Below are positions 9,766 through 35,365 of a DNA stretch of 64,000 bases, in pieces (position 1 is the first letter of the stretch; each line of letters starts with the position of its first letter). The DNA comes from Dietzia sp. B32 (lineage in GTDB: Bacteria; Actinomycetota; Actinomycetes; Mycobacteriales; Mycobacteriaceae). Made by a program: the position numbers and the translations under genes. The notes beneath the pieces were generated by a model. The model ran no database searches. It saw only the letters and a program-made list of their open reading frames with translations, and had not been told where the DNA came from. The DNA is taken from assembly GCF_024732245.1 (NCBI RefSeq), contig NZ_CP093845.1:868001-932000 (forward strand), read 5' to 3'.

Positions 9766-11603
9766 CGGTCGACCGCCGTCCGGTAGGAGGCTGACGCCTC
9801 GCGCAGCTCGAGGTGGGTGCCCGTGCGCGTCTCGCCACTGCGGGGCAGGTGGACGACCCGGTCGGCGGTCGCGAGGAACGGCGGCGACGACGTGACGATC
9901 AGCGTGGCCTGCCGCGGCCGACTCGTCCGCAGTCGGCGGACGGCCTGGGCGATCTCCCACTCGGTGACGGCGTCGACAGCACTGGTCGGTTCGTGGAGAA
10001 CGAGGACGTCCGGGTCGGCGTGGAGGGCGCGGGCGAGCGCGATCCGCTGGCGCTGACCGCCGGAGAGGTTCCGCCCGCCTTCCTGCACCGCGTGGTCGAG
10101 CCCGTCGGGCAGGTGCTCGATGATCTCCGCGACGGCCGAGGCGCGCAGGACCTCATGAGAGATCGGCGTGGCGGCCTCGCCACTGGCACCGGACTCACCG
10201 AGCTCGTCGTCGTCCCCCGGGCCGCCATGTCCCGAACCGCCGCCCCCCGGGCCACCGAGCTCGTCGTCGTCCCCCGCGCCGACGTGCTTCATCGCGATGT
10301 TGGAACGGATGGTGCCGACGAACAGGTCCACTCGGTGCGGCGCGGCGACGAGATGCTCGGCGATGGCGGGTGCCAGGTGACTGCGTCGGTGCCCGCCCAC
10401 CAGGACGGCGTCGGCCCCGTCGCCGTGCCCGGCGATCGCCAGGGTGACAGCGTTCGCGGCGGCGGGCTGATCGGCCACGAGCGCGACGACCTCACCTTCG
10501 GCCACCTCCAGGTCGAGCGGGCGGCCGTCGGGCAGCGCCAGCCCCCGCACCTCCAACCGCGCCCCCGCGGGGACCTCGTCGCCCGAGTCGTCGACCGGCG
10601 CCGACCCCAGCAGGTCGACCAGCCGCTGCGCCGCGCCGTGGGACCGGGCGGAGATCGACACCATCTGGGTGATCATCCGGACCGGCTCCTCAAAGAACAC
10701 GGCCACGCCCACCACGGAGACGAGCGTGCCGATCTCCATCTCCCCCGCCAGGACCCGGTAACCGGCGGCCAGCAGGACCAGCGCCAGGACCACGGCCATC
10801 CCGAGCGAGCCGATCCCCTGGACCCGCCCCGTCCGCTCGGCGGTGACGATCCCCGCCGCGGCCGCCTCCTCGGACGCCGTGCGGTACTGCTCCGCGGCCC
10901 AGCGCTCCCCGCCGCCGGCCTTGAGCACGCGCAGGCCCGCCATGATGTCGGTCGCGCGGCTGCTCGCCCGCCCGATCGCGGCCTGCTGGGCGGTGCTGTG
11001 CCGGGAGATGGCGCGGCTGGGCAGGGCCACCAGCACCAGGCTGAGCGGGACGCCGATGAGCACGATGAGCCCGACCAGCCAGTCGGTCCACAACAGGTAG
11101 ACCGAGATCCCCACGATGCTGATCACCGCCGACCCGCCGAGCGCGATCTGCCGGAAGACCAACGCGGCCACGTCGGCGTCGGCCGAGCACACCGAGAGCA
11201 CGTCTCCGGAGCTCGCACCGTCCATCGCGCGCCGCCGGGTCAGCGGCACCCGCGTCACCTCGACCCGCAGATCGTGCGCCTCCTCCTGCAGCGCCCGGTT
11301 GCTCATCCGGGCGCCGAACCGGTAGCCGAGGCTGAGCACGGTGAACAGCGCGATGAGCCCGACGACCGACCACAGCAGGGCCCACCGGTCGAGCGGGATG
11401 ATCGCGACGTCGACGATCACACCGATCGCGATGGGCACCAGCGCCTCGCACAGCTGCCACAGGGTCATGAGCACCAGGCCGGGGACCACCAGGTGCCGGC
11501 GGCGCCGGACCGCGCGGAGCAGGAGCCCGTTGGCGGTGGTCGGCGCATCCGCCGGGGTCGGGGCGCCCGCGGACTGCCGGCGCGTCGACATCGGTGCTGA
11601 CAT
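9762..11603 (-). CDS. ABC exporter half-transporter with normal signature but lost Walker A and H-loop
   Basis: About 613 residues, the exporter membrane domain followed by a nucleotide-binding domain. The signature N-L-S-G-G-Q-R-Q-R is perfect. The P-loop is replaced by A-D-Q-P-A-A-A-N-A-V, with no Gly-Lys-Ser/Thr. Walker B reads V-L-V-L-H-E-P-T, with His for Asp, and the H-loop reads V-T-S-S-P-P, with Ser for His. It also carries a Gly/Asp-rich insertion (D-D-D-E-L-G repeated twice) just before the signature region. It cannot bind ATP normally alone and is the partner of the next gene, with which it overlaps by 4 bases. ATG 11603 is preferred (GGGAG upstream). ATG 11591 is possible. Confidence 0.85.
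   Translation of the reverse strand: MSAPMSTRRQSAGAPTPADAPTTANGLLLRAVRRRRHLVVPGLVLMTLWQLCEALVPIAIGVIVDVAIIPLDRWALLWSVVGLIALFTVLSLGYRFGARMSNRALQEEAHDLRVEVTRVPLTRRRAMDGASSGDVLSVCSADADVAALVFRQIALGGSAVISIVGISVYLLWTDWLVGLIVLIGVPLSLVLVALPSRAISRHSTAQQAAIGRASSRATDIMAGLRVLKAGGGERWAAEQYRTASEEAAAAGIVTAERTGRVQGIGSLGMAVVLALVLLAAGYRVLAGEMEIGTLVSVVGVAVFFEEPVRMITQMVSISARSHGAAQRLVDLLGSAPVDDSGDEVPAGARLEVRGLALPDGRPLDLEVAEGEVVALVADQPAAANAVTLAIAGHGDGADAVLVGGHRRSHLAPAIAEHLVAAPHRVDLFVGTIRSNIAMKHVGAGDDDELGGPGGGGSGHGGPGDDDELGESGASGEAATPISHEVLRASAVAEIIEHLPDGLDHAVQEGGRNLSGGQRQRIALARALHADPDVLVLHEPTSAVDAVTEWEIAQAVRRLRTSRPRQATLIVTSSPPFLATADRVVHLPRSGETRTGTHLELREASASYRTAVDR
10196..10276. repeat. 24-bp direct repeat inside the ABC gene
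   Basis: A 24-base unit occurs at 10196-10219 and again, identical, at 10253-10276. It encodes the doubled D-D-D-E-L-G insertion in the ABC nucleotide-binding domain. The 33 bases between the copies encode a Gly/Ser/His-rich linker. Confidence 0.85.
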
Positions 11604-11693
11604 GGGTGTGGGACTCCCGCCGTTGGTGATCTCGCCTGCAAACTCGGCCGACTCAGCAGCGTAGTTCGCGGGGCCCGCGCAGCGGCGCCCACA

Positions 11694-11760
11694 CCTCACC
11701 TGTCGGATTGCGCCTCACCTGCGGGGCCCCGTAGGTCAGTCGCATCCCGATGGGTGAGGC
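11694..11760. promoter_or_regulatory. three CCTCACC boxes upstream of the ABC exporter
   Basis: CCTCACCTG occurs at 11694-11702 and 11713-11721, 19 bases apart. The inverted copy GGTGAGGC is at 11753-11760 and forms an 8-base inverted repeat with 11712-11719. The cluster lies 90-160 bases upstream of the exporter start on the minus strand, and the spacing of about two helical turns suits an operator. No regulator gene is adjacent. Inference only. Confidence 0.35.
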
Positions 11761-11794
11761 AGTCCCCAGCGTGGCGTCCCCCTACTGCGCCCGC

Positions 11795-12544
11795 CTACGG
11801 CGCCGTGGTCCCCACCGAGTAGGCGGCCGCCGCGTCGCGCACGTCCATGACGTATTCGCGCGACGCGTTGTAGGCGAGCACGGCCCGCTGCCAGTTCTCG
11901 GCCTGCGAGAGGTCTCCCCCGTTGGTGCACAGCAGGCGCGCGGCGGACACGGCGGCGTCGTCGATCTGGTTCGGATCGGCGCGCCCGTCGCCGTCGGCGT
12001 CGACGCCGTACTTGCGCCACGATTCGGGGATGAACTGCATCGGCCCGACGGCCCGGTCGTTCTCGGTGTCGCCGTCCAGCTCGCCGCCGTCGGTGTCGGG
12101 AATGTCGGCGAAGCCGGGCGAGCCGTCGAGTTTGATGCCGATGATCGGCGGGAGCGCGTAGCCGTCGTCACTCAATGACGCCCCGCGGTACCGGCCGTGC
12201 CGCGTCTCCACGTGCCCGATCCCGGCGAGCGTCGTCCAGGCGAGATTGCACTCGGGCCGAGTCTGCCGCATGGTCTCGGCGGCGTTCCCGTAGGCGGCGA
12301 GCGCGGCGACAGGGATATTCATCGGCTCGTTAAGGCCCGCCGCCCACTCGCGCAGCTGGTCGGAGGTGCGGCCGGGCGCGTTGATGTCGATCGTCGGTAC
12401 CGGGGCACCGGCGGCGGGCGGGATGCCCGGGGGGATGGGCGTCGGCGCCTCGCGGGTGGGCCCGTAGGAACACGACGACGACAACACGGCAACGGCGACC
12501 AGGCCCGCGAGACTCGCGGTGGCGCGGGGGGTCAGGGTGGGCAT
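11795..12544 (-). CDS. lytic murein transglycosylase lipoprotein
   Basis: A 249-residue exported protein. The N-terminus has a hydrophobic core ending in V-L-S-S-S-C-S, a lipobox-like site, followed by a Pro-rich linker. The catalytic domain is of the SLT type: I-G-H-V-E-T-R-H-G supplies the catalytic Glu, and A-V-G-P-M-Q-F-I-P-E-S-W is the conserved core. D-A-D-G-D-G-R-A-D-P-N is the calcium-loop-like segment common in actinobacterial members. A-V-L-A-Y-N-A-S closes the domain. It should cleave glycan strands of peptidoglycan between MurNAc and GlcNAc outside the membrane. The ATG at 12544 was chosen because it gives a signal peptide directly. Confidence 0.88.
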   Translation of the reverse strand: MPTLTPRATASLAGLVAVAVLSSSCSYGPTREAPTPIPPGIPPAAGAPVPTIDINAPGRTSDQLREWAAGLNEPMNIPVAALAAYGNAAETMRQTRPECNLAWTTLAGIGHVETRHGRYRGASLSDDGYALPPIIGIKLDGSPGFADIPDTDGGELDGDTENDRAVGPMQFIPESWRKYGVDADGDGRADPNQIDDAAVSAARLLCTNGGDLSQAENWQRAVLAYNASREYVMDVRDAAAAYSVGTTAP

Positions 12545-12636
12545 CGCGCTCAAGTCTGCCCGAGCGGGGCCCGGCAGCGCGTCGGGGTATCCCCCGATTC
12601 CCGGCGGGCCGGCGCCTCGCGCGTCCGGTGCCGGGG

Positions 12637-13230
12637 TCAGCCGCGCCCGCCGAATCCCCCGGCCAGCGCGGTGAGCTCGTCGAGCAGTGCGTCCCGGCTG
12701 ATGGCGGGGCGGTCCAGCACCCAGCGCACGGCGATGTTCTCCACCGCCATGACGATCACCCAGGCCCGGGCCGCGGGATCCCCGGTCGTGGCCCCGGCGG
12801 CGGCGAGGTAGACCGCCAGGAGTTCGCGGACCCGCTGTTCGAGGGCGTGCTGGGCCGCCCGGTGCCGCACCGCGGGCAGCTCCTCCCACATGATGCGCAG
12901 CAGTCCGGCGTCGGCCTCGAGCGCGGTGAGCAGCGCGTCGGCGATCGACCGGGCCGTCGCCGGGTTGTTCACGTCGACCGGGCCCGTGGCCGAGAGCGAC
13001 GCCGCGACCCGGTCCGAGATCTCCGCCGACCACCGGTCCATCACCACCGCGACCAGCGCGGACTTGTCCGGGAAGTACTGGTACAGCGAGCCGGGGCTGA
13101 CCTCCGCCTCGTCCGCGACGCGGTTGGTGGTGAACGACTCGTAGCCGTCGCGCACGAGCACAACGCGAGCAGCCTCCACGATCCGCTCCACCATCGCGCG
13201 GGATCTCGCCTGCTTGGGCACCCTTCTCAT
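12637..13230 (-). CDS. TetR-family transcriptional regulator
   Basis: A 197-residue regulator. Residues from about 10 to 55 form the TetR helix-turn-helix: A-M-V-E-R-I-V-E-A-A-R then F-T-T-N-R-V-A-D-E-A-E-V-S-P-G-S-L-Y-Q-Y-F. The C-terminal ligand domain is of the usual length. It is divergent from the MpaB-family gene with only 45 bases between the starts. A perfect inverted repeat (GCGAGT, 4 bases, ACTCGC) sits in that gap, so it most likely represses the neighbour and itself. The inducer is unknown. Confidence 0.85.
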   Translation of the reverse strand: MRRVPKQARSRAMVERIVEAARVVLVRDGYESFTTNRVADEAEVSPGSLYQYFPDKSALVAVVMDRWSAEISDRVAASLSATGPVDVNNPATARSIADALLTALEADAGLLRIMWEELPAVRHRAAQHALEQRVRELLAVYLAAAGATTGDPAARAWVIVMAVENIAVRWVLDRPAISRDALLDELTALAGGFGGRG

Positions 13231-13245
13231 GAACGCGAATTGTAT

Positions 13246-13261
13246 GCGAGTAAAAACTCGC
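13246..13261. promoter_or_regulatory. probable TetR operator
   Basis: A perfect 6-base inverted repeat, GCGAGT / ACTCGC, with an AAAA spacer, lies between the divergent TetR gene (start 13230) and the MpaB-family gene (start 13276). Its position would let one bound dimer block both promoters. Confidence 0.55.
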
Positions 13262-13275
13262 GTCATAGTCATGGC

Positions 13276-14505
13276 ATGACTGTTACGTCCGAGAAGACAG
13301 CCGCCGTGATGCCGTACCCCCAGCGCTTTCGCGAGGGTGAGGAGCGTGGCCGTCGCCTCGGCCGCGCCCTCAAGCCCATCGCCGGCGTGGGCCACCTCGA
13401 CGAGAAGCTCATGGACAGGATCGGTCGCGACTACTTCGAGCGCGACGATCTGGGCGATCAGCTCGCCCGCGCCATGCGGCTGCGGTCCGGCGAGCCCGGC
13501 GCGGTGACCCGCCGCCAACTCGACGAGGCGCTGCACTCCGGCTCGGCCGGCCTGCCCGACGACGCGCCTCAGATCCTGCGGGACTACATCGCGCACCTCG
13601 AGAACACCCCGGACTGGGTCGACTGGGAGAAGATCGAGCGGGGGCAGAAGGCCTACCTGCGCTTCGGCCAGAACGCCGCCGACATCCTGCTGCAGCTGTC
13701 CCTCATCGGCGGCTACCGGTTCGGCGGCCCCACCGATCTACTGGTGGCCACCGGCGGCCTGACCGGTGAGACCACGCTGCGCCGGCTGGCCGAGACCAGC
13801 CACTGGACCATGTCCCTGTCCATCCCGGACGGGCTGCGGCCGGGCGGCGAGGCGTGGCGACTGACCGGTCACGTTCGGGCCATGCACGCGGTGGTCAACA
13901 ACGCCATGGAGCCGCGCTGGGACAGCCAGCGGTGGGGCCTGCCCATCAACCAGAGCGACCTGGCCTCGACCCTCGGCCTGTTCGACGCCGTGGTCCTGCT
14001 CGGGGTGCGCACCCTGGGCGTGGCGGTGAGCCGCAAGGACTCGGACGCGGTGATGCACATGTGGCGCTACGTCGGCTGGCTGATGGGCGTGGCCGACCAC
14101 TACCTGGTCGAGGGCGAGCGCGAACGCCATCGCGTCAACTACCACATCCTGCTGTCGCAGGCCGGCATCTCCGAGGCCGGACCGAAGCTCACGCAGGCCC
14201 TGGTGGAGTCGCAGCGACGCCGCCACCGCAGCGGGCCGCTGCCCCGCCTGCGGGCCCGGATCGGCCATGAACGGCTGCTGAGCATGCTCACCGTCCTGCT
14301 CGGCCGCGAATCGATGCACGAGTTCGGCCTACCGGTCCGCCCGCCGTGGGCGCACGCCTACCTGGTCCCGCTCAACACCCTGCGCTACCGCACGCCGTGG
14401 GGCCGAGCCCGGCTCGAGTCGTGGGGCGAGAAGGTCCGCGCCCGGGAGCGCAAGGAGACCTTCGGCGACTCCCGGCCCGACATCGGCCGTCCCGCCACCG
14501 CCTGA
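13276..14505 (+). CDS. MpaB-family (DUF2236) oxygenase-like heme protein
   Basis: A 409-residue all-alpha protein of the DUF2236 group, which includes fungal MpaB and is related to rubber-cleaving latex-clearing protein. The block L-T-G-H-V-R-A-M-H204-A aligns with the R-x-x-H motif in which the His is the heme ligand of latex-clearing protein. Conserved downstream blocks include M-W-R-Y-V-G-W-L-M-G and V-N-Y-H-I-L-L. Members are thought to be heme-b dioxygenases or oxygenases, but the substrate here is unknown. The ATG at 13276 opens 15 bases after the putative operator, and the divergent TetR probably controls it. No signal peptide is seen. Confidence 0.8.
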   Translation: MTVTSEKTAAVMPYPQRFREGEERGRRLGRALKPIAGVGHLDEKLMDRIGRDYFERDDLGDQLARAMRLRSGEPGAVTRRQLDEALHSGSAGLPDDAPQILRDYIAHLENTPDWVDWEKIERGQKAYLRFGQNAADILLQLSLIGGYRFGGPTDLLVATGGLTGETTLRRLAETSHWTMSLSIPDGLRPGGEAWRLTGHVRAMHAVVNNAMEPRWDSQRWGLPINQSDLASTLGLFDAVVLLGVRTLGVAVSRKDSDAVMHMWRYVGWLMGVADHYLVEGERERHRVNYHILLSQAGISEAGPKLTQALVESQRRRHRSGPLPRLRARIGHERLLSMLTVLLGRESMHEFGLPVRPPWAHAYLVPLNTLRYRTPWGRARLESWGEKVRARERKETFGDSRPDIGRPATA

Positions 14506-14583
14506 CGCCGGCCCGAGACGGGCCCGCTCGTCCCCCGCCGTCGAGGCGGGCCCCAGCCGTCGATGCCGCCCCCCGCCGCCGCG

Positions 14584-14643
14584 TCCAGAAGACGGTTCGG
14601 CACACATCGCCCGAGAAGGGGGTGTGCCGAACTGTCTTGTCGA
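14584..14643. repeat. palindromic repeat element, copy 1
   Basis: A 60-base inverted repeat: 14584-14605 pairs with 14622-14643 in a 22-bp stem with two mismatches and one G-T pair, around a 16-base loop. It is similar in arms, loop (CATC...CCGAG) and right flank (TCGATGG) to the element at 23288-23346, in the same orientation. It lies between the MpaB-family gene and the truncated ATPase. Confidence 0.8.
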
Positions 14644-14734
14644 TGGCAAGGCCGGGCAGATAGTTCAGCGCCGCGGCCGTCGAGCGCCACAGCACCCACC
14701 CGCTGGCCTCCGCCATCACCTCCGCCGCCCTGCG

Positions 14735-15468
14735 GCACCGTCGGCGGCCACCTCATCACCGTGGGATCACCGCGCCGGCTCGCCACCGGGGAGCTCACCG
14801 AGCAGATCACGGCCCTCGAGCACGAGGGCATGACCGTGGTGGTGGTCCACCGCGACGGCCGCCCGATCGGCGCCATCGGCATCCGCGACGAGTTGCGGCC
14901 CGAGGCCCTCGTCGTCGTCGCCACCCTGGCCGACCACCGCATCGGCGTGAGCATGCTGACCGGAGACAACCCGCGCACCGCGGCCGCTCTCGGCGCGCAG
15001 GCCGGCATCGGCGACATCCGCGCCGACCTCTCGCCCGCGGGCAAGGCCGACGCGGTCGCCGGACTGGCCCGGTCCCGGCCCACGGCGATGATCGGCGACG
15101 GCATCAACGACGCCCCGGCGCTCGCGACCGCAGACGTCGGGATCGCCATGGGCGCGGCCGGATCCGACGCCGCCATCGAGTCCGCCGACGTGGCCTTCAC
15201 CGGCACCGACCTGCGGCTCCTGCCCCGCGCACTCGCACACGCCCGGCGGGGCCGCCGGATCATCAACCAGAACATCGTCCTCTCTCTGGTCCTCATCACG
15301 GCCCTGGTCCCGCTGGCCGTCACCGGCGTCCTCGGTCTCGCCGCGGTGGTGCTCATCCACGAGGTCGCCGAGGTCGTCGTGATCCTCAACGGGCTGCGGG
15401 CGGCGCGCACGCCCCCCGCCACCCGCGGTGGCGGGGGCAGGGGCAGGGGCAGGGACGCCGGCACGTGA
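14735..15468 (+). pseudogene. truncated heavy-metal P1B-type ATPase (C-terminal third)
   Basis: The frame encodes only the end of a metal-transporting P-type ATPase. Present are the nucleotide-domain and hinge motifs M-L-T-G-D-N-P-R-T, G-D-G-I-N-D-A-P-A-L-A and A-D-V-G-I-A-M-G, then two final membrane helices. Missing are the metal-binding N-terminus, six membrane helices with the CPx motif, the actuator domain and the D-K-T-G-T phosphorylation loop. Similarity begins near 14735, and a nearby GTG at 14761 could serve as a start, but the product could not pump. The hairpin repeat copy lies about 90 bases before the break. A copper-type gene pair follows at 16.7-18.1 kb, so the ancestral pump may have belonged to it. 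Confidence 0.8.
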
Positions 15469-15488
15469 GGCCTCTCCGCCTCAATCAG

Positions 15489-15516
15489 ACAAATGAGGCA
15501 ATAACGGCTTATTTGT
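15489..15516. promoter_or_regulatory. inverted repeat upstream of the SatD-like gene
   Basis: ACAAATGAG (15489-15497) faces CTTATTTGT (15508-15516), giving an 8 of 9 base inverted match in an AT-rich island of otherwise GC-rich DNA, about 50 bases before the gene start. It is a candidate binding site for the SatD-like protein or a promoter element. Confidence 0.4.
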
Positions 15517-15567
15517 AAGTTTGAGGTGTTTTGACCTTATGTCCGCGCGGTGTGGCACGATCGCGCT

Positions 15568-16266
15568 ATGTACGTGGTGACCATCGACCAGCGCCGCAGC
15601 CGCACCAGCGCCGACCGGGTACCCGCCCTGCTCGACGCCCTGGCGGACGTCCCGACCGCGGCCGCGTTCGAGCGCACGGCCGGCGACGAGGTCCAGGGCC
15701 TGCTCGAGGATCCGGCCGCGGTACGGTCCGCGCTGCTCGTCGCACTGCGCGAGGGTGACTGGCACTGCGGCGTCGGGGCGGGAGAGGTCGACGACGAGTC
15801 CTACTCCTCCGGGACCAGGGCCGGTCGCGGGGACGCCTATCTCGCGGCCCGCGTCGCGGTCGATGCCGCGAAGGGCCTCCCCGGCTCGGTGGCGATACGG
15901 GTGACGGGCGACCCCGGATCACGTGACGACGGCACCTCGGCGACGGCCTGGGCCGCCGACTGCGAGGCGGTGTGGGCCCTCGTCGCGCCGCTCGTGCTCG
16001 GCCGCACCGAGGCGCAGTGGCGGGTGGTGGACGCCGTCGACCGCTCCCCCACGCAGGTCGCGGCCGCCGAGGAACTGGGCATCACCCCCGCCTCGGTCAC
16101 CGGGGCGCTGCGGCTGTCGCGGATCCGGGAGGAGCGCGCCGCCTATCCGGTGCTCGATCGCCTGCTGGCGGGCACGCACGACGCCGCCGTCGGCAGGACC
16201 GGCGACGCGGCCGTGGGCAGGACCGGCAGCCCTGCGAGAAGCCAGCACGGGAAGGCCAGCCGATGA
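15568..16266 (+). CDS. SatD-family-like regulatory protein
   Basis: About 232 residues. The opening M-Y-V-V-T-I-D-Q-R-R-S-R is the hallmark of actinobacterial SatD-like proteins. The C-terminal part contains a sigma-region-4-like helix-turn-helix (V-D-A-V-D-R-S-P-T-Q-V-A-A-A-E-E-L-G-I-T), which suggests DNA binding. The tail contains a short duplicated D-A-A-V-G-R-T-G. ATG 15568 was chosen over an upstream ATG at 15550 because it starts directly at the conserved block. It overlaps the following membrane-protein gene by 4 bases. Biological role not known to me. Confidence 0.65.
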   Translation: MYVVTIDQRRSRTSADRVPALLDALADVPTAAAFERTAGDEVQGLLEDPAAVRSALLVALREGDWHCGVGAGEVDDESYSSGTRAGRGDAYLAARVAVDAAKGLPGSVAIRVTGDPGSRDDGTSATAWAADCEAVWALVAPLVLGRTEAQWRVVDAVDRSPTQVAAAEELGITPASVTGALRLSRIREERAAYPVLDRLLAGTHDAAVGRTGDAAVGRTGSPARSQHGKASR

Positions 16267-16703
16267 GCACCTGGCCCGACTGGATCCTCGTCGCGATCGT
16301 GGTGACGCTGAGTCTGATCGCCTCCGCGGCGCTCGGTTCGCCGATCGCGTCGCTCGTCCTGCGCTCGGCGCGGGTGCCCGAACCCCCGACCGTCGAGGTG
16401 AGTGGTGACTCGCGCCGGCCCGTGGTGCGCCGACGGGACGACCCCACCCCGGTCGTCCGCGAGGTGCTGCGCGGCGGGATGTGGATCGGGATCCTCGAAC
16501 GCATCGGGCTCACGGCCGCCATCCTCGCCGGCCGCTTCGAGCTCGCCGCGGTGGTGGTGGCGATCAAGGCGCTCGGTCGCTATCCCGAGATCCGGGAGAA
16601 TCCCGCGGTCAGCGAGCGGTTCATCATCGGCACGCTCGCCTCACTTCTCGTCGCCGCCGCGTGCGGGGCGCTCGGTCTCGCGATTCTGCATACCCTGGGC
16701 TGA
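16263..16703 (+). CDS. small membrane protein coupled to the SatD-like gene
   Basis: A 146-residue protein with one hydrophobic segment at the N-terminus (about 7-34), a basic linker (V-R-R-R-D-D-P-T), then three hydrophobic segments including G-M-W-I-G-I-L-E-R-I-G-L-T-A-A-I-L-A-G-R. The stretch K-A-L-G-R-Y-P-E-I is conserved in SatD-associated membrane proteins as I recall them. Its ATG overlaps the SatD stop (ATGA), so the two proteins are made together and probably work together. Confidence 0.65.
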   Translation: MSTWPDWILVAIVVTLSLIASAALGSPIASLVLRSARVPEPPTVEVSGDSRRPVVRRRDDPTPVVREVLRGGMWIGILERIGLTAAILAGRFELAAVVVAIKALGRYPEIRENPAVSERFIIGTLASLLVAAACGALGLAILHTLG

Positions 16704-16738
16704 GCACGGTACCGATCCCCGAGGAGAGGACACCCGCC

Positions 16739-17443
16739 ATGACCCGCACGAGGATTCTGATCTCCGCCGCAGTGGCCGCCTCCGCGCTGGCCCTGACCGC
16801 CTGCGCCGACAGCGGTGACGACCCGGCGGCCGCACCCACCAGCTCCGCCGGCGCAGGCGCAGAGTCCGGCACCAGCGCGGAGTCCGGCGCGCCCGCCGAG
16901 TCCGACTCCGACGCCCCCGCCGAGGCCGGGGAACCCACCGCCGCCGACGTGATGTTCTCCCGGATGATGATCCCGCACCACGAGCAGGCGATCGAGATGA
17001 GCGACATCATCCTGGCCAAGCCCGACATCCCCGCAGACGTCACCGCCCTCGCCGAGAAGATCAAGGCCGAGCAGGGCCCGGAGATCGAGCAGATGGAGGC
17101 GTGGCTGGACGAGTGGGATCAGCCGACCGGACCGCGGGACGGCCACGGTGGTCACGGTGGCGGCAGCCAGGGCGACGGCGGCATGAACATGGGTGAGGAC
17201 ATGTCGATGATGGGCGGCATGCTCTCCGCCGACGAGCTCCAACAGTTGTCCGATAGCGAGGGCACCGACGCCGTACGACTGTTCCTCGAGCAGATGATCG
17301 CCCACCACGAGGGAGCCATAGACATGGCCCGGGGCGAGGTGGCGGACGGCGGGTATCAGCCGACCATCGACCTGGCCCGGTCGATCATCGACACCCAGCA
17401 GCGGGAGATCGCCACCATGCGTGACATGCTCTCCGCGATGTGA
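16739..17443 (+). CDS. DUF305 lipoprotein, probable copper-binding
   Basis: A 234-residue exported lipoprotein. The lipobox A-L-T-A-C follows a short signal sequence, and a Ser/Ala/Glu/Gly-rich linker follows. Two DUF305 halves each carry the metal-type motif: M-M-I-P-H-H-E-Q-A-I-E-M and M-I-A-H-H-E-G-A-I-D-M. Between them is a Gly/His/Met-rich stretch (D-G-H-G-G-H-G-G-G; M-N-M-G-E-D-M-S-M-M-G-G-M) that suits copper or silver. DUF305 proteins are often found with copper resistance genes. A strong GAGGAGAGGA ribosome site precedes the ATG. It lies directly before the CueP-like gene, forming a likely periplasmic copper-handling operon. Confidence 0.85.
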   Translation: MTRTRILISAAVAASALALTACADSGDDPAAAPTSSAGAGAESGTSAESGAPAESDSDAPAEAGEPTAADVMFSRMMIPHHEQAIEMSDIILAKPDIPADVTALAEKIKAEQGPEIEQMEAWLDEWDQPTGPRDGHGGHGGGSQGDGGMNMGEDMSMMGGMLSADELQQLSDSEGTDAVRLFLEQMIAHHEGAIDMARGEVADGGYQPTIDLARSIIDTQQREIATMRDMLSAM

Positions 17444-17487
17444 GACCTCACCGTTACCGCGAGACCGGACAAGGAGCCCACCCGGAA

Positions 17488-18105
17488 ATGCCCCCCACCC
17501 CTCGCCCGCGGCGCCGCGCCCTGGCCGCAGCCCTCACCGCGAGCTGCCTCACCCTCGCAGCCTGCGGCACCACGCAGTCGAACCCGGGAGAACCGGGCCG
17601 GACCGCGGCGGGCCAGACCGCGGCGGCCGAGGTCCTCGACCAGTACGGCCTGGCCGACATGGATGCCCGCGGGGTGATCGAACACCTCGACACGATGCCC
17701 GTCGCCGAGCGCCCCACCACGCTCGTGGCCTCGGTCCAGCCGACCGAACTCGTCCTCACCGACAACGCCGGCGGCTCCATCGCGACCCTGCCGATGCCGG
17801 ACGACGAGTTCTACCTTTCCGTCGCGCCGTACCGGGACCGGACCCATGACTGCCTCTTCCACAGCCTGACCACCTGTCTCGGTGAGTTGGGCGGCGAGAC
17901 CGTCGACATCACAGTGACCGACGACGCGGGACAGTCGATCCTCGAGGAGACGCGCACGGTCTACGACAACGGCTTCGTCGGACTGTGGCTCCCCCGCGAT
18001 CTCACCGGCACCCTCACCATCGAGCACGACGGCGCGACCTCGGAGGTACCGATCTCCACCGGTGACGACGACCTCACCTGTCTAACCACCGCGCACCTGA
18101 CCTAG
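17488..18105 (+). CDS. cueP: CueP-family periplasmic copper-binding lipoprotein
   Basis: A 205-residue lipoprotein with lipobox L-A-A-C. The mature part matches CueP: L-D-Q-Y-G-L-A-D-M-D-A-R-G-V-I-E, then T-H-D-C-L-F-H-S-L-T-T-C and F-V-G-L-W-L-P-R-D. The three family cysteines are C122, C130 and C198. Their spacing (8 and 76) equals the C96/C104/C172 pattern I recall for Salmonella CueP, which binds copper and helps supply or detoxify it in the periplasm. ATG 17488 with AGGAG upstream is preferred, because a GTG at 17440 would place 16 odd residues before the signal peptide. It follows the DUF305 gene closely. Confidence 0.85.
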   Translation: MPPTPRPRRRALAAALTASCLTLAACGTTQSNPGEPGRTAAGQTAAAEVLDQYGLADMDARGVIEHLDTMPVAERPTTLVASVQPTELVLTDNAGGSIATLPMPDDEFYLSVAPYRDRTHDCLFHSLTTCLGELGGETVDITVTDDAGQSILEETRTVYDNGFVGLWLPRDLTGTLTIEHDGATSEVPISTGDDDLTCLTTAHLT

Positions 18106-18172
18106 AGTCCGCCCCGCACCAGCTCCCAGCACCAGCTCCCCGCTCCCCGCTCCCAGCCCCAGGAGACCGCCC

Positions 18173-18769
18173 ATGGTCACAGTCCGTACGGCCACGCGCG
18201 CCGATGCCCCCGCGATCGCCCGCATCCTCACCGAGGCCTTCCGCGACGACCCTGCGTGGTCGGTCACCCTGCCCAATGACGAGACCCGAGCCGCCAAGCT
18301 GACCGCGTACTACCTCCGCCGCGTGCGGCGACACCCCCAGTGGATCGACGTCGCGATGGACGACGGACGCCTCGTCGGCGCGATCATGTGGGCGCCCCCG
18401 GCCGACACCGGTGCCCTCGCCACCGCCGCGCGCGGAATCTCCGGCGCTGCGCGCTGGACCCTGGGCCGGCTGCCCCTCGGACGCGGCACCCGCCACACCC
18501 ACCAGATCGAGGCCTACCGGCCCACCACACCGCACTGGTACATCCGCGACATCGGCACCGGACCCGAAGCCCGCGGCAAGGGCGTCGGATCTGCACTGCT
18601 CGAGCACCGCCTGCGGGTCGTCGACCAATCGCAGACCCCGCTCGCGTTCCTCGAGTCCACCACCCCGGCGAGCCGTCGGCTCTACGAGCGTTTCGGATTC
18701 GAGGCGGTGGGCTCCGTGCCGACCCTGCCCGGCCAGTCCTCGACCGCCATGGTGCGCGGGCGCTCTTGA
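18173..18769 (+). CDS. GNAT-family N-acetyltransferase
   Basis: A 198-residue GNAT enzyme. The acetyl-CoA pyrophosphate loop is G-P-E-A-R-G-K-G-V-G-S-A-L-L, preceded by the beta-strand W-Y-I-R-D-I-G-T. The C-terminal L-Y-E-R-F-G-F-E-A-V-G is the usual GNAT closing motif. It transfers an acetyl group from acetyl-CoA to an amine, but the acceptor is not evident. AGGAG precedes the ATG by 7 bases. The 60 bases upstream contain short CAGCTCCC repeats. Confidence 0.85.
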   Translation: MVTVRTATRADAPAIARILTEAFRDDPAWSVTLPNDETRAAKLTAYYLRRVRRHPQWIDVAMDDGRLVGAIMWAPPADTGALATAARGISGAARWTLGRLPLGRGTRHTHQIEAYRPTTPHWYIRDIGTGPEARGKGVGSALLEHRLRVVDQSQTPLAFLESTTPASRRLYERFGFEAVGSVPTLPGQSSTAMVRGRS

Positions 18770-18812
18770 GCCCACTGGCCGGTATTCTGCCCCATCCGGA
18801 GGAAGTTCTAGC

Positions 18813-19199
18813 TCAGCCCCCAGCGCCCGGCTTGAGAGTTCCATCTGGGTTTAGGGCGTTCGGAGCGACTTCCACCCAACGTGCAGGGTTGGGAGTACCC
18901 ATGAAGGTGCAGCGGAGCTTATTGGGCGACAGTTCGCCGATCCTCGACTGCGGGCAGATATCTCCTGGTCGCGGGTTGGGCGCTGCCGGCGGGGGCGGCA
19001 GCGGCGGGAGATGGAACTCCCATTCAAACGGGTATGGCAGCGGGGGAAGCTGCCAGATCGGAATATCGAACGGACGCGGAACAACGATTGCGTCGACTAC
19101 CGACCCGATGGCTGGCTGCGCGCTGGCGGTGGGCGCCAGCGCTAAAGCCATTCCGACAACAACTGGCGCGAGAACCAAGGTGGTGGCATGGCGCTTCAC
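18813..19199 (-). CDS. small secreted proline-rich protein A
   Basis: A 128-residue protein with a clear signal peptide (basic M-K-R-H, hydrophobic core, cleavage near A-S-A-Q). The mature part is rich in Pro, Leu and Trp and contains W-Q-L-P-P-L-P-Y-P-F-E-W, P-P-L-P-P-P-P, and a C-x20-C pair (the Cys in G-D-I-C-P and L-R-C-T-F). It is divergent from secreted protein B at 19372, with which it shares the Q-L-P-x-L-P-Y-P-x-x-W motif. The two look like distant paralogues. Function unknown; cell-surface or secreted. Confidence 0.65.
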   Translation of the reverse strand: MKRHATTLVLAPVVVGMALALAPTASAQPAIGSVVDAIVVPRPFDIPIWQLPPLPYPFEWEFHLPPLPPPPAAPNPRPGDICPQSRIGELSPNKLRCTFMGTPNPARWVEVAPNALNPDGTLKPGAGG

Positions 19200-19231
19200 T
19201 GGGACCCCTCTTCATAAGCTCAGGACAGTCC

Positions 19232-19344
19232 GGATAAGTACCCTTATGAATCGGGTTATCTTATCCACGGCGGATATTAGCAACCCTGAGTAGTGGGAAT
19301 TCTAGAACTCCGCCAATTGCTAGGGGCTCGCTGTTCTAATTGGC
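19232..19344. promoter_or_regulatory. cluster of inverted repeats between two secreted-protein genes
   Basis: GGATAAG (19232-19238) faces CTTATCC (19260-19266), and ATAAG/CTTAT (19234-19247) forms a nested hairpin. A second inverted repeat, GCCAATT (19312-19318) / AATTGGC (19338-19344), lies nearer the plus-strand gene. The density of symmetrical AT-rich motifs suggests shared regulation of the divergent pair. No cognate regulator is adjacent. Confidence 0.4.
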
Positions 19345-19371
19345 AGCACCCTTAAGGAAAGTGGACTTGCA

Positions 19372-19935
19372 ATGTCACGTACTCGCACATTGTTCGCCGG
19401 GTTTGCTGGCGCGATCGCCATCACCGCCACCCTCACACCGACCGCCGGCGGCCAGGTCCTGCCCGGCGGCTCGGTCGAGCTGCCCCCGATGGCGTCGGTA
19501 CCTGTTCCAGTACCTGCCGGGTCTACAAGCGCCCAGCTGCCGACACTCCCCTACCCGCTCGTCTGGCACGACCTCGTCGCACCGGCACCCCGGGTTCCTC
19601 AGTACGTGGCATCGAATTGGGTGGTCCCGTTCAGCTACTGTCCCGCTCCAAACCAGCGAGCATTCGCACAAGATGGCACCCAGCTCTGGTGCGCTCAGTT
19701 GAGCCGCACGGATGCCCGCCTCTGGGCGCCGTATCCGACCCCGGTTCCGTACCCGGCTCCCGCCCTCGCTCCTGGCCTGCCGAACTTCACCGAGGTCGCA
19801 AATTCGCTCGGTGCTAAACCGTGCCCCAACGTTGGAACCAGGGCAATCGACCCGTCCAACGGGCAAGAGGCATTCTGCGACTACCGGCGCCTCACCCACG
19901 TCGGAACCATCTGGCAGTACGAGCCGGGCTCCTAG
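19372..19935 (+). CDS. small secreted proline-rich protein B
   Basis: A 187-residue protein with a signal peptide ending near T-A-G-G-Q. The mature sequence is Pro-, Val- and Tyr-rich and contains A-Q-L-P-T-L-P-Y-P-L-V-W, a second P-Y-P-T-P-V-P-Y-P-A-P-A stretch and four Cys (Y-C-P-A, W-C-A-Q, P-C-P-N, F-C-D-Y) that may form two disulfides. It shares the L-P-Y-P motif and general layout with protein A, which is divergently transcribed. No enzyme motif. Likely an envelope or secreted structural protein. Confidence 0.65.
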   Translation: MSRTRTLFAGFAGAIAITATLTPTAGGQVLPGGSVELPPMASVPVPVPAGSTSAQLPTLPYPLVWHDLVAPAPRVPQYVASNWVVPFSYCPAPNQRAFAQDGTQLWCAQLSRTDARLWAPYPTPVPYPAPALAPGLPNFTEVANSLGAKPCPNVGTRAIDPSNGQEAFCDYRRLTHVGTIWQYEPGS

Positions 19936-20152
19936 GAGACGGCCCTGAGCACGCCGATCGGTCCGACCGAACGGTTGCTTAAACGTCTGAGGGGACGACC
20001 TGTCAAAGGATCGGGACCGACAAAGTGCGCAGTCGATTTCGACCGAACATGGCGGCTAGGACTGCCTCGAAAGTGGCAGGAGCCGGGCAGCGATCGCATG
20101 CTCATGGAGAGCGCGCCGCCAGCCGGCCCCTGCCGGAGGTGATGACGGGCGA

Positions 20153-20284
20153 CTAGATGATCGCCTCGCCGTCGCGCCTGGACTCCGCGACCTCCTTGAC
20201 GAAGCCACGCACGAGCACGGCCAGGACGCCGGCCACGATCACCGGCCATATGAGCACATAGATGGTGAGAAGAATCGGTGTCAT
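20153..20284 (-). CDS. 43-residue small subunit of the sodium:solute symporter
   Basis: A short gene that begins 20 bases after the symporter stop. The product M-T-P-I-L-L-T-I-Y-V-L-I-W-P-V-I is a single membrane helix followed by R-G-F-V-K-E-V-A-E-S-R-R-D-G-E and ends in A-I-I. This matches the 40-50 residue 'putative transporter small subunit' proteins encoded after SSS-family transporters in actinobacteria, analogous to the small subunit MetS of NSS transporters. It probably stabilises or regulates the large subunit. Confidence 0.75.
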   Translation of the reverse strand: MTPILLTIYVLIWPVIVAGVLAVLVRGFVKEVAESRRDGEAII

Positions 20285-20304
20285 GAGTATCTGACCTGCC
20301 TTTC

Positions 20305-22056
20305 CTAGACCCGAACCAGGTCGTCGTCGTCGTTGTCGTCGTCATCGCGTCGGCGCCGATCACTCCCGGCGGCGACCACGGCTGCGTCACCCTCGGCCTC
20401 GGCCTCGAGCTCCTCCGCGACCTCCTCCGTGTCGTAGTCGGCGGTGTCACCGGCGATCGTGGCGAAGTCGAACTCCATCGAGCTACGGAACGACATGCCG
20501 GCACAGACGAGCGTGCTCACCGCGTACGCCACGAGCGAGGCGGTCAGCGTGTCGTAGTCGCGCAGGAAGCCGAAGATGAACGGCGAACTGGCCACCGCGG
20601 CGATCACCGCGACCACCAGCGCCGGACGGAGCCCGATGAAGCCGAACACCATCAGGCCCAGCACCACGCCTACACCGACCACGGCCAGGGCCTCGATCGC
20701 GATGGGCAGCACACCCGTGTCCGGGACGAGCCCGAAACGGGTCGGGATGAACACGGCCAGCGCCACCAGCACGGAGACGGTGAACGCGGAGTTGGTGACC
20801 TTCTTCCAGTAGAAGCTCGCGATCACCGGGAACACGAGCGCACCCCACAGGGCGCCCACGAACACCAGCAGGTCCAGGATGTTGAACCGGATGTTCGCGA
20901 AGATCAACGCCGCCACCGTCGCCAGGATCATGGTGACGCGGCCGATGATGAGCATCGTGCGCGGGTTGGGAATCCTGCCCCGGCTGCGCAGGCTCTGGCC
21001 GTACATGTCGGTCATCGCGATCGAGGACATGGCCGCCAGATCCGAGTCCGCCGTCGAGGACAGCGAGCCGATGATCATGATGAAGAAGACGGCGACGAGC
21101 ACGCCCGGCAGGTACTCGGCGGCGACCTGCGGGAGCAGGTTGTTCGGGTCGCCGTCGGAGGGATCGATGCCCGCGTACAGCGCCAGCACCCCCACCATGC
21201 CGATACCGATGATCGTGGCGCCGTAGCCGATGGTCGCCGTGATGAACGTCGGCTTGATCAGGTCCTCACGCACCGCGAACAGTCGCTGGGCGATGGTCTG
21301 GTTACCGATGGCGTAGGCCAGCACGGCCGCGATGTACGGGGCGCCCTGGTTGAGGAACGCATCGGAGGAGAAGAACGACTGCTGCTGCGGCGTGAGGTTC
21401 TGGGCGCCGGACTCGAACAACTCGATGCCGCCGAGGAAGAAGAACATCGCCGGCACGATGATGATCACCGCGCCGAGCATCGCCAGCACCTGGCCGAAGT
21501 CCGTCAGCACCGAGGCACGGAAACCCGACCACAGGGTGTAGAGCAGGACGCCGCCGGCGATCACGATCACGCCCTGGATGAAGCTGAACGGGCTGAGCAT
21601 GGAGATCAGCGCGCCGCCGGCGATGAAGTTCGACGTCAGCGAGATGACGGAACCGAGGATGTTGGATCCGGCCAGCATGAGCTGGGAGGACCGGCCGTGG
21701 CGGGCGAACATGACCTCCGCGAGGGTGTGCGCCTGGGGCGCGACCTTCCGGATGCGTCGCCCGAAGGGGTAGATGAACAGGATCATCAGGGCACCCCAGA
21801 GCCCGTAGTGGATCGGCCCCGAGATGCCGTAGAGGTAGCCCGAGTTGACCGAGGCGTACATGGATGACGCCCAGATCCACGTAGCGGTCATCGATGCCGC
21901 CGACATGCCGAACCCGATCTTGTGACCGGCGGTCATGAAGTCGTCGGCGTTCTCGTCCTTCTGCGCGATCCGCATGGAACCGAACATGGTTCCGCCGTAG
22001 AACAACAGTAGAAGTAACACGACAGCGGTCGCGCTCAATGCTGTGGTTTCAAGCAA
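20305..22056 (-). CDS. sodium:solute symporter (SSS family)
   Basis: About 583 residues and 13-14 membrane helices. The early block D-F-M-T-A-G-H-K-I-G-F-G-M-S-A-A-S-M-T-A-T-W-I-W-A and the motif G-S-L-S-S-T-A-D-S-D-L-A-A are typical of the SSS fold, where they contribute to sodium binding. The substrate is not deducible, though the closest subfamily feel is urea/short-chain acid/amino acid uptake. I choose the TTG at 22056 because AGGGG lies 8 bases upstream and the first helix follows directly. Longer frames include non-hydrophobic leader sequence. The C-terminal tail is acidic and ends with Asp runs (D-D-D-D-N-D-D-D-D). It is followed by the 43-residue partner gene. Confidence 0.8.
   Translation of the reverse strand: MLETTALSATAVVLLLLLFYGGTMFGSMRIAQKDENADDFMTAGHKIGFGMSAASMTATWIWASSMYASVNSGYLYGISGPIHYGLWGALMILFIYPFGRRIRKVAPQAHTLAEVMFARHGRSSQLMLAGSNILGSVISLTSNFIAGGALISMLSPFSFIQGVIVIAGGVLLYTLWSGFRASVLTDFGQVLAMLGAVIIIVPAMFFFLGGIELFESGAQNLTPQQQSFFSSDAFLNQGAPYIAAVLAYAIGNQTIAQRLFAVREDLIKPTFITATIGYGATIIGIGMVGVLALYAGIDPSDGDPNNLLPQVAAEYLPGVLVAVFFIMIIGSLSSTADSDLAAMSSIAMTDMYGQSLRSRGRIPNPRTMLIIGRVTMILATVAALIFANIRFNILDLLVFVGALWGALVFPVIASFYWKKVTNSAFTVSVLVALAVFIPTRFGLVPDTGVLPIAIEALAVVGVGVVLGLMVFGFIGLRPALVVAVIAAVASSPFIFGFLRDYDTLTASLVAYAVSTLVCAGMSFRSSMEFDFATIAGDTADYDTEEVAEELEAEAEGDAAVVAAGSDRRRRDDDDNDDDDLVRV
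20321..20349. repeat. GTC microsatellite encoding the Asp-rich symporter tail
   Basis: A run of GTC/GTT units which, on the minus strand, encodes D-D-D-D-N-D-D-D-D at the C-terminus of the symporter. It lies at the very end of the gene, where length variation would be tolerated. Confidence 0.7.
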
Positions 22057-22451
22057 CCTTTCTGCCCCTTTCCCTCTTCTTTTGTTAGACCAACGTTCCC
22101 ACCATAGAGAAGTCTGGGCGGAAACTGAGAATCCTCCCGGGGAGGGCGGTTGTCGGAGAGCTCCAAAGACGGCAACCGATGTGCCGAGATCTCGCCCGGA
22201 TTTCTGGGGTGCCGATGGAGGGAAGCGCCAAATCCCGTCCCGCACTCAGGCTGCGTTGTAGAAATCTCCCGGCCACCCGCACACACCCAACAATTCTCAC
22301 CCGAGTGCAACAAATACCGTCTCTGGGCAGGCGAGATGCCCGGTCGGGAAACTCCGGTCCGCGGCCTCGGAACGTCGGCTCACCGGGACGCAGAGACGCG
22401 TCAACTTAAGGAAGAGGTCACCGATGGGGCAGGAGGAGCTGAGCGCCCGGC
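22057..22451. other. 395-base leader region between mazG and the symporter
   Basis: This gap is upstream of the symporter and downstream of mazG, both on the minus strand. It has several short self-complementary stretches: CGGTTG/CAACCG arms around 22148-22180 and a 13-base CCTCCC-G-GGGAGG near 22134-22146. I recognise no known riboswitch in it. It is long enough for a structured leader or a small RNA. I see no convincing open frame with a ribosome site. Confidence 0.4.
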
Positions 22452-23407
22452 CTAGCTGACGTCGTGCCCGGACTCGGCGGTGTCGTGAACGGCCTGGGCG
22501 GAGTGGGCCGAACGCCATGCCTCGCGCCAGTCATCGGCGGTCGCGGCGTCCACGGGCCCCGATAGACGCGATTCGGCTGCACTGACGGCGCTCGCGAACC
22601 GCCGGACCACTTTCCGGTACTCGACCTCCGCGGAACCCGAATCGTCCGCGTCGTCCCCGCGAGCGCGGAACAACCCCGTGGGGTCCACGTGGACGACCCG
22701 CATCCCGGCGGGAACGAGATCGTCGGGGATCCCGGCCGAGCGGACACGCTCCAGCACCTTCTGCCCCAGCGCCAGGGCGGGCATGTCCCAGGAGATGCCC
22801 TCGACCACACCGCGCGGCGGGCGGCCTGCGCGCTCGGCGGCCTTGGCCTGCTGCCACAGACGGTCCTGCTCCGCCGCATTGAGGGACCCGGACCCGTTGC
22901 CGGGCGCACTGCCGGGCGCAGCCCCGGGCCCACGACCGGGCTCACTGCCGGGCTCGTCGGTGAACCAGTACGGAGCCCGGCGGCGGAGCTTGTCGAGCAG
23001 CGCCCCGGCCACGTCGTGCACGTCGAACGGCTCGGAGTCCCGCTCCGCCCCGATCGCCGCGTGGAACAGCACCTGCAGCAGCAGGTCGCCCAGCTCGGAG
23101 ACCAGCTCGTCGCGGTCACCGTCGGCCACCGCGTCGACCAGCTCCCACGACTCCTCGAGCAGGTACCGCAGGAGGGAGGCGTGGGTCTGGGCGGACTCCC
23201 ACTCGCCGTCGCGGCGGATGCGGGCCATCACCTCGACGGCCTCGGCCAGGCGATCGCCGGCGGCGCCCCCCCGAGCGCCCGACGCCGTCGAGAAGACAGT
23301 TTCGCGCGCATCTGCCGAGTGGCCTTGTGCGGAACCGTCTTCTCGATGGGGAAGGTGGGCGTCGCGGTGGGGGTCGGGGTGGGCGTCGCGGGCCGAAGCG
23401 CCGGAGC

Positions 23408-23411
<4 letters not shown>
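22452..23411 (-). CDS. mazG: nucleoside triphosphate pyrophosphohydrolase MazG
   Basis: A 319-residue MazG enzyme, which hydrolyses (d)NTPs to the monophosphate and clears abnormal nucleotides. The metal-binding blocks are [12 protein letters not shown] and [12 protein letters not shown], and the C-terminal region is of normal length. The ATG overlaps the mfd stop (ATGA), so translation is coupled. Two insertions are odd. The N-terminal extension (about residues 22-42) is encoded by a palindromic repeat element, and a Gly/Pro/Ser-rich stretch ([13 protein letters not shown]) encoded by degenerate GCCGGGC repeats splits the protein near residues 155-180. Both preserve the frame. Confidence 0.9.
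23288..23346. repeat. palindromic repeat element, copy 2, inside mazG
   Basis: A 59-base inverted repeat: the ten bases TCGAGAAGAC (23288-23297) pair perfectly with GTCTTCTCGA (23337-23346), and pairing continues inward for about ten more positions with one mismatch and a few G-T pairs. The central CATCTGCCGAG matches the loop of the copy at 14584-14643. It lies in frame in the 5' part of mazG and is translated. Confidence 0.85.
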
Positions 23412-27100
<3,689 letters not shown>

Positions 27101-27229
27101 GCGTGTGGATCCTCCGGGTAGGGGGTTCGTCGAGCCGGGGTGTGCGGAGCGCACGGGTGGTGGGACGCACACCTGAAGGGCCGCAGATCCTCCACTCTAA
27201 CCGCGCACCCGCCCCGGTAGCCTGTGCCT

Positions 27230-27877: not shown

Positions 27878-27883
27878 CCGGCC

Positions 27884-32454: not shown

Positions 32455-32478
32455 ACCGCGCCGCCCTCATCCACCGGC

Positions 32479-32516: not shown

Positions 32517-32537
32517 GCCATGTGACCGTGCGACCTA

Positions 32538-35249: not shown

Positions 35250-35283
35250 CCCCGCGCGGCGGCGATTGTCGCTGCTCGCAGAA

Positions 35284-35327: not shown

Positions 35328-35365
35328 TCATGTGCCAGACTGGTGACGGCCCGTTCGCGGGCCGT

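Follow-up and report, generated by a model that had tools for sequence, protein, structure and literature searches.

Two hairpins of about 60 bases lie within the 64,000-nucleotide stretch of Dietzia sp. B32 DNA analysed here (the window), one between genes and one inside mazG, and the question is what kind of element they represent and how one of them came to be read as protein. As judged from sequence comparison, the element nearly always lies behind gene ends, probably acting there to stop transcription; in several related species one old copy appears to be translated within mazG. The features concerned are as follows.

13276..14505, + strand: mpaB-like oxygenase gene, whose stop precedes the copy 1 core by 83 bases
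14584..14643, + strand: element copy 1, between the mpaB-like gene and an ATPase remnant, located by pattern match, fold and covariance model; core 14589-14638, arms 14589-14605 and 14622-14638, loop 14606-14621; genome positions 882577-882650, 73.9 bits with the covariance model
14761..15468, + strand: C-terminal ATPase remnant downstream of copy 1, with a Pfam Hydrolase match only
22452..23411, - strand: mazG, 319 aa, MazG domain at residues 75-150; its ATG overlaps the mfd stop (ATGA)
23288..23346, + strand: element copy 2, inside mazG, where the - strand encodes residues 22-42 from it; core 23293-23341, arms 23293-23309 and 23325-23341; genome positions 891281-891353, 68.2 bits with the covariance model
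23408..27172, - strand: mfd (transcription-repair coupling factor; TRCF, CarD_TRCF_RID, DEAD), directly upstream of mazG

The remnant is probably a P-type ATPase, a name that beyond the Pfam Hydrolase match is our own reading. The sequence-only reading had described two hairpins with the same arms, loop, right flank and orientation, the first intergenic and the second in frame within mazG without a stop, and both descriptions were borne out. The cores, of the form AAGACRGTT...AACYGTCTT, measure 50 bases in copy 1 and 49 in copy 2 and are identically oriented, and both copies have the CCGAG loop and the TCGATGG right flank. When folded as DNA, copies 1 and 2 gave z values of -4.0 and -4.1 on the + strand and -3.3 and -2.9 on the - strand, and for each copy none of 200 shuffles folded equally well.

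Ten places in the genome match the paired pattern AAGACRGTT-N15-45-AACYGTCTT, and none match a reversed control pattern. A covariance model found 33 places at E ≤ 0.01 in the 3.73-Mb genome; 24 of these are the copies from which the model was built and match by construction, and the other nine are new. Three places with E above 0.01 (1673432, 3124896 and 394152, the last called inside a gene at E 0.44) were left out of all counts. Chance origin of the window hairpins was rejected on the genome pattern count, the shuffle folding and the covariance-model places; the two copies are members of one palindromic repeat family, as the sequence-only reading had supposed. The family was found in 22 of 23 Dietzia genomes, with only scattered weak matches outside the genus. 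A known RNA family was rejected, since among the Rfam matches listed for four loci, mostly miRNA hairpins, none reached the gathering score. A limited literature search turned up no account of such a family, or of terminators or repeats, in Dietzia, in keeping with the earlier suggestion that the family is undescribed in this group.

The placement of the copies relative to genes is biased. The 33 copies comprise 20 between convergent genes, 12 between codirectional genes and one between divergent genes, compared to 11 convergent pairs among 56 in the window (Fisher p 1.7e-4, with gene calls from a home-made caller and a background of one 64-kb window). Because the caller starts mazG past the element, this copy is counted as codirectional. 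The 11 other codirectional copies are found at distances of 16-105 bases from the stop upstream, and 10 of them are closer to that stop than to the next start, the exception being the copy at 259064 (41 bases from the start, 49 from the stop). These counts were taken from the 33-place set because a 32-locus set had duplicates and gaps. In relatives, 47 loci are convergent, 17 codirectional and two at an edge (66 classified, of which at least seven are one copy fetched twice; L147 and L148 of the original 68 were dropped because the finder saw no element). No copy other than that in mazG was called inside a gene among the 33 places and the 66 relatives' loci, and therefore gene entry, a habit implied by the earlier comparison with Rickettsia, is seen at mazG only. 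The loop has the same orientation as the codirectional genes in 20 cases and the opposite in five (binomial p 0.004); as some loci are counted more than once and orthologues do not give independent cases, we take this as no more than a hint.

Many copies recur at the same place in different species. It was found that 40 of the 66 relatives' loci lie at the same junction as a copy of our genome, the other 26 being unmatched, and the recent spread suggested earlier is therefore unsupported. At shared junctions, identity was 0.88 in the inner arm and 0.85 in the outer arm; the flanks reached 0.66, and a stretch of three arm bases, with freely changing columns among them, 0.69. The junction at 2051956 carries the element in eight of 16 decidable species (G014 has one arm at a contig end; G019, G020, G022, G018 and G004 were unreadable). 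Four of the eight element-free species have an unrelated hairpin there (z -2.4 in G013, -5.1 in G009, -4.5 in G001 and -3.0 in G012), and the other four have no clear hairpin (z -0.5 in G003, -0.3 in G021 and -0.8 in G016; the gap in G008 is 16 bases). The G013 hairpin was rejected as a second repeat family, its arm pattern occurring once, in one of the 23 genomes.

The fold, the A- and T-rich feet, the placement behind stops and between convergent genes and the recurrence at the same junctions across species together suggest, with fair probability, that these are dispersed, near-symmetric bidirectional intrinsic terminators. RNA made from either direction would fold into a stem of about 20 bp with a CCGAG-type loop, and the A-rich stem start (GAAAAGA) would pair with the U-rich end (TCTTTTC), which would serve as the U-tract at which RNA polymerase is presumed to stop. 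The feet of the 33 copies average 4.4 T of 8 on the right and 4.3 A of 8 on the left (T is 15% in the window), and the T-tract is imperfect, reading TCTTCTC in many copies. The copy at 2051956 forms a stable RNA hairpin (z -7.8), hairpin energies of the mazG copies range from -35 to -52 kcal/mol across both strands, and the covariation score of the family was reached by none of 500 shuffles. A simple terminator scan of window positions 10000-29999, which accepts loops of 3-8 only, listed neither copy, and a hairpin test of the window gaps is insensitive because the two gaps that hold elements score only z -0.9 and -1.5. Further points stand against terminators, besides the imperfect T-tract and the four element-free species that show no clear hairpin at 2051956: tolerated insertion behind genes would yield identical placement, and the arm and loop sequences are conserved beyond pairing needs, which terminators do not require. 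The family would have dispersed early in Dietzia and now be mostly inherited in place.

The mazG copy is real and old. Comparison of mazG among sister species, proposed with the sequence-only reading, found the element present in nine and absent in seven of 16 decidable genomes (G001, G006 and G021 were undecidable, and G004, G014, G019 and G020 gave no match), and the element leaves the frame open. Translation of the stretch is very probable because the next in-frame starts after the first ATG, at codons 61 and 62, lie past both the element and residues L55, A58 and V59, which are invariant in all 15 aligned Dietzia MazG proteins. Residues 1-52 are predicted to be without structure (pLDDT 34-42 per block of ten over residues 1-50, first helix at 54). 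Although the element follows closely on the mfd stop, the overlapping ATGA start would cause it to be read within a disordered N-terminal tail. An open frame and the dispensability of the tail would explain why it is tolerated there. Pairing of its arms survives substitutions that change the encoded residues on either side, the matched residues at the segment ends being E-D-G/S with T-V, E-R with T-L, E-S with T-L and E-D with I-L. The covariation score was reached by none of 500 shuffles, and two of five covariation measures were not clearly above shuffles (33/500 and 199/500). Between mfd and mazG, some transcripts may terminate at the element, to an extent that depends on translation. We put forward, as an unlikely proposal, that the copy is dual-use, a terminator hairpin in a translated tail that would act as a translation-coupled attenuator, with the need for pairing driving the matched amino-acid changes across much of the genus. 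A coding subfamily is not claimed: mazG-like loops in L304, L314, L317 and L319 have intergenic or ambiguous contexts.

The matched changes had been attributed to selection for the fold or to recent spread, and the arms do covary; however, both outcomes expected of template switching between the arms, homogenised arms and inverted spacers, were observed. Covariation alone is therefore no proof of selection, since flipped loops and matched arm changes also fit template switching. Flips occur at five sites: loop orientation was unreadable in eight of 40 shared-junction pairs and flipped in eight of the other 32, two of which were omitted from the flip analysis (one a copy fetched twice, one from the near-identical G022). 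Given the flipped loops and matched multi-base arm changes, template switching between arms probably keeps them alike and occasionally flips the loop. It is possible, though we would not presume it, that all the matched arm changes, those in mazG included, arose solely by template switching or by conversion of one copy by another. Shared junctions show arms exchanged over several bases and inverted loops, as described for template switching in the available parts of PMC8604942 and PMC8794818. Moreover, the mazG arm variants recur in other copies of G016, G017 and partly G022, and copies at shared sites (identity 0.815) are only slightly more alike than copies at different sites (0.779). However, template switching leaves the placement behind genes unexplained, and none of nine mazG copies has a flipped loop, in contrast to the 8/32 pairs elsewhere, which is weak evidence because the nine are related. 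Such an origin can be true together with the terminator reading, as it concerns the mode of change.

We consider it improbable that the family is a non-autonomous mobile element, MITE-like or RPE-like, that multiplied selfishly and has persisted chiefly behind genes, where insertion harms little, the mazG copy being a tolerated in-frame insertion. This would account for dispersed copies at different sites that are about 77% identical, for presence or absence varying between species at the mazG and mpaB sites and for the 26 relatives' loci that have no copy of ours at the same junction by the test used; pneumococcal repeats with the same kind of convergent-gene bias are interpreted as mobile in the accessible text of PMC3049150. 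The 40 shared junctions argue against it, as does the absence of a Y1_Tnp (RAYT) match at E ≤ 0.001 from all 23 Dietzia genomes (the search gave matches in five of 14 control genomes). No transposon with such ends was seen in our genome, because the arm pattern (≤3 mismatches) occurs outside elements at only three places, each with three mismatches, and no arm pair within three mismatches flanks a gene. Spread on plasmids or phages was rejected, as neither a plasmid nor a phage collection gave a match. In a search for target-site duplications, the flanks were strongly diverged, the closest pair seen being G003/G005 at mazG. Finally, a DNA or RNA site for a putative protein (a nucleoid protein, uptake machinery or an RNA-binding protein), with the conserved loop and arms as recognition sequence, would fit the arm identities at shared junctions and the invariance of loop bases C36 and G37 in 24/24 aligned copies, but is very unlikely given that single half-sites are nearly absent from our genome, unlike uptake sequences as described in the available part of PMC1852404, and that the loop is flipped relative to genes at five sites.

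As predicted bidirectional terminators, these elements make up a set of candidate terminators for the GC-rich actinobacterium Dietzia. They also offer a natural series, the same gene junctions across the species of one genus, in which an untranslated hairpin family can be compared with one translated copy, and which permits asking directly whether selection or template switching lies behind paired stem changes, and by what route non-coding repeats turn into protein.

REP/BIME elements are likewise short palindromes dispersed outside genes; identity with the REP/RAYT system was rejected because Y1_Tnp is absent from the Dietzia genomes at the threshold given above. The paired DNA uptake sequences of Neisseria and Pasteurellaceae are also repeated inverted sequences that form terminators (PMC1852404, available part), whereas they number hundreds or more, against 33 copies of the Dietzia family, in which unpaired half-sites are virtually lacking. 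Rickettsia palindromic elements (RPEs), to which the hairpins had first been compared, are about 150 bp long and form ten families, with nearly half of the elements in ORFs as in-frame fusions (PMC10969869, in the part available). The comparison holds at mazG, where a palindromic repeat lies in frame within a housekeeping gene and species with and without the insertion exist, and fails for the family: the unit is about 60 bp, and because the mazG copy alone was found inside a gene, the likeness is limited to one locus and the full analogy was rejected. The predicted terminators are closest in kind to the pneumococcal SPRITE, which in the accessible text of PMC3049150 is a dispersed terminator-like hairpin in excess between convergent genes and near stop codons, nearly restricted to close relatives. 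In comparison to SPRITE, the Dietzia element is symmetric and rich in GC, its A- and T-rich feet form part of the stem, and its family has many junctions common to several species, one translated copy in a gene and both loop orientations.

The two hairpins noticed in the sequence-only reading, copy 1 (bases 14584-14643, intergenic) and copy 2 (bases 23288-23346, inside mazG), were found at those positions and belong to the same family. Both fold better than all of their 200 dinucleotide shuffles, whichever strand is taken. The genome searched was one contig of 3,725,606 bases, window included, in which a strict paired arm pattern occurred at 10 places and its reversed control at none. Compared by MazG, its closest named relatives belong to Dietzia, and it was treated as a member of that genus. 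A covariance model (74 positions, 25 pairs, structure drawn by hand) built from 24 aligned copies of this genome (G000) identified 33 distinct places in it (E ≤ 0.01), of which 24 fit by construction as model input and 9 were new.

The search for further copies in relatives, which the sequence-only reading had proposed, was also positive. In a first set of 61 genomes (23 Dietzia and 38 others, E ≤ 0.01), 22 of the 23 Dietzia genomes had matches; G009 had a single one (E 0.009), and G012 alone had none at this threshold. One of the 38 other genomes (G036) was matched. In a second set of 201 genomes of the family (E ≤ 1e-4), 14 of the 16 listed Dietzia genomes had 9-24 matches each when the two strands were counted together, and one or two were found in 17 of 185 non-Dietzia genomes (best E 1.2e-11). 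These figures are lower bounds because no more than 24 candidates were scored per genome under strict filters and G036 was missed. The weak non-Dietzia matches (G086, G109, G120 and 14 further genomes, E 1e-5 to 1e-11) are perhaps ordinary terminators of like form. No match to the element was found in plasmid and phage collections, nor in Rfam above the gathering threshold for the four loci scanned. These results indicate that the hairpin family is real and repeated at the level of the genus Dietzia.

Read from the outside inward, the element shows a TCGA foot and AAGA, next two to three columns that vary freely yet stay paired (e.g., ACA, AGC, ACC or GAC), then GTTCCGCACAC, an upper stem and a CCGAG loop, after which the order is reversed. 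Over the 33 copies in G000, the left foot had a mean of 4.3 A in 8 positions and the right foot 4.4 T in 8, compared to a T content of 15% in the window.

Using genes called by a codon-usage caller trained on the window, we found that 20 of the 33 places are convergent, 12 codirectional and 1 divergent, whereas the gene pairs of the window comprise 34 codirectional, 11 convergent and 11 divergent (Fisher p 1.7e-4 for the convergent excess). At convergent sites, the median distance from stop to element core was 40.5 bases (range 14-269). The mazG copy was classed as codirectional because the start that the caller chose for mazG comes after the element. For the remaining 11 codirectional copies, the distance to the upstream stop is 16-105 bases; this stop is closer than the next start in 10 of 11, the exception being the copy at 259064 (49 bases from the stop, 41 from the next start). 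Among 66 classified loci of relatives, which are top-scoring matches that include at least seven cases of one copy fetched twice as well as non-independent orthologous copies, 47 were convergent and 17 codirectional, two stood at an edge, and none was divergent or inside a gene. The repeats are terminator-like, and we infer that they function as terminators.

An element of G000 was present at the same junction for 40 of these 66 loci, judged by flank alignments that extend to within 250 bases of both elements (both sides in 25, one side in 15), and 26 failed this test. The convergent junction 2051956 was obtained from 22 genomes, in one of which (G014) a single arm stands at a contig end and five of which were unreadable. 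Variants of the element were found in eight (G000, G011, G007, G010, G002, G005, G017 and G015). Unrelated hairpins occupy the junction in G009 (z -5.1), in G001 (-4.5) and G012 (-3.0), for both of which the left gene only was found, and in G013 (z -2.4, 4 of 200 shuffles as good). The G013 hairpin was considered as a second repeat family and ruled out, as it is not a repeat. No clear hairpin was seen at this junction in G016 (z -0.8), G003 (-0.5), G021 (-0.3) or G008 (16-base gap). Some hairpin is therefore kept in 12 of 16 decidable species.

In the window, a hairpin of z < -3 was found in 3 of the 4 convergent gaps that could be used, in one of 15 codirectional gaps and in none of 10 divergent ones. 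This test is weak, since no more than 4 of the 11 convergent gaps had a usable size, one of the three contains a tRNA-Gln gene, and the two element-bearing gaps score only -0.9 and -1.5. The strong non-family hairpins lie in the convergent gaps 32449-32542, 35244-35442 (with the tRNA-Gln at 35366-35438) and 43276-43441. Hairpin retention at junction 2051956, the single junction studied, supports the terminator reading without proving it.

The mpaB junction of copy 1 is less stable, since the element was seen there in G000, G015 and G019 only. In G015 (L234, G015:C1 ~2359600), two tandem copies differ in arm sequence. Behind copy 1, 14761-15468 encodes the C-terminal part alone of a probable P-type ATPase (Pfam Hydrolase). 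In G008 and G019, the corresponding pieces lie ~1.5-1.6 kb from the mpaB end, distances that make a deletion beside copy 1 in G000 likely.

The comparison of mazG with and without the element was carried out on the gene from 19 of 23 Dietzia genomes. The element is present in nine (G000, G008, G007, G011, G003, G002, G016, G017 and G022), absent from seven (G015, G013, G005, G010, G018, G009 and G012) and undecidable in three (G001, G006 and G021). Eight of the nine keep it in frame with the MazG domain, and in G022 a run of N between the two hides the link. The in-gene copy is genuine, as had been claimed, but it is the sole one found inside a gene. Orientation, reading phase and length are the same in all of these mazG copies, which align in eight distinct gapless rows, G008 and G011 being identical. 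Pairing was seen in 89.7% of cells versus 83.6% in shuffles and both-side changes in 13 cells versus 4.3 (0 of 500 shuffles reaching either value), in 6 pairs versus 3.6 (matched by 33 of 500), with 11 pair types versus 10.1 (matched by 199 of 500); the signal was lost when the partner was shifted by 1-3 columns. On both sides of the stem, the changes replace amino acids, in these matched combinations:

E-D-G/S with T-V
E-R with T-L
E-S with T-L
E-D with I-L

The MazG domain starts at residue 75. A structure prediction of modest quality (mean pLDDT 65.1, pTM 0.39, 15 sequences) gave pLDDT values of 34-42 per block of ten for residues 1-50 and a first helix from 54. The stretch from the element to the conserved residues 55-59 contains no in-frame start. 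The tail is hypervariable even without the element; its length varies greatly, and short repeats make up part of it (L170 of G009, L171 of G017).

In a tree built from four gene segments and rooted on G012 by choice, a single early gain in mazG requires five losses, and two gains with three losses also fit. Conversion between copies may have occurred, since arm variants of the mazG copy are found elsewhere in G016, G017 and partly G022. The in-gene copy is old.

Across the family, covariation exceeded that of shuffles in score (0.141 versus 0.084, 0 of 500 as high), in both-side-changed cells (32, 0 of 500) and in pairs changed on both sides (10, 5 of 500). Over 40 shared-junction pairs, some being the same copy twice, identity was lowest in the flanks (0.66); within the arm it reached 0.85 in the outer and 0.88 in the inner part, against 0.69 in a three-base stretch containing the free columns. 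The two to three paired columns beside AAGA evolve quickly and in concert next to fixed neighbours, and the preferred triplet differs by lineage. Of the copies examined, 7 of 10 in G002 and 7 of 13 in G003 have AAGAGCGTT as both arms, and AAGACAGTT is the most frequent arm form in G000 (7 of 30). Copies at shared sites were 0.815 identical (n 27) versus 0.779 at different sites between species (n 1173, p 0.009); between sites within G000 the value was 0.766 (n 435). The loop had the same orientation in 24 of the 40 pairs, was flipped in 8, spread over five sites, and was unreadable in 8. Inverting it raised identity from 0.31-0.47 to 0.56-0.88 in the six flipped pairs tested, both pairs at site 2728984 being weak (0.56 after inversion).

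Arm homogenisation and spacer inversion are ascribed to template switching between inverted-repeat arms in PMC8604942, and PMC8794818 describes the same process as capable of maintaining stems. The arm and loop changes match template switching. Covariation alone therefore does not prove selection for the fold, which the sequence-only reading had suggested from the compensating stem changes.

Among the open-access papers listed by the literature searches, we found no description of repeats or terminators in Dietzia. The known systems for comparison are REP/BIME elements, besides RPE and SPRITE (both in PMC10969869; SPRITE also in PMC3049150) and terminators together with uptake sequences (PMC1852404).
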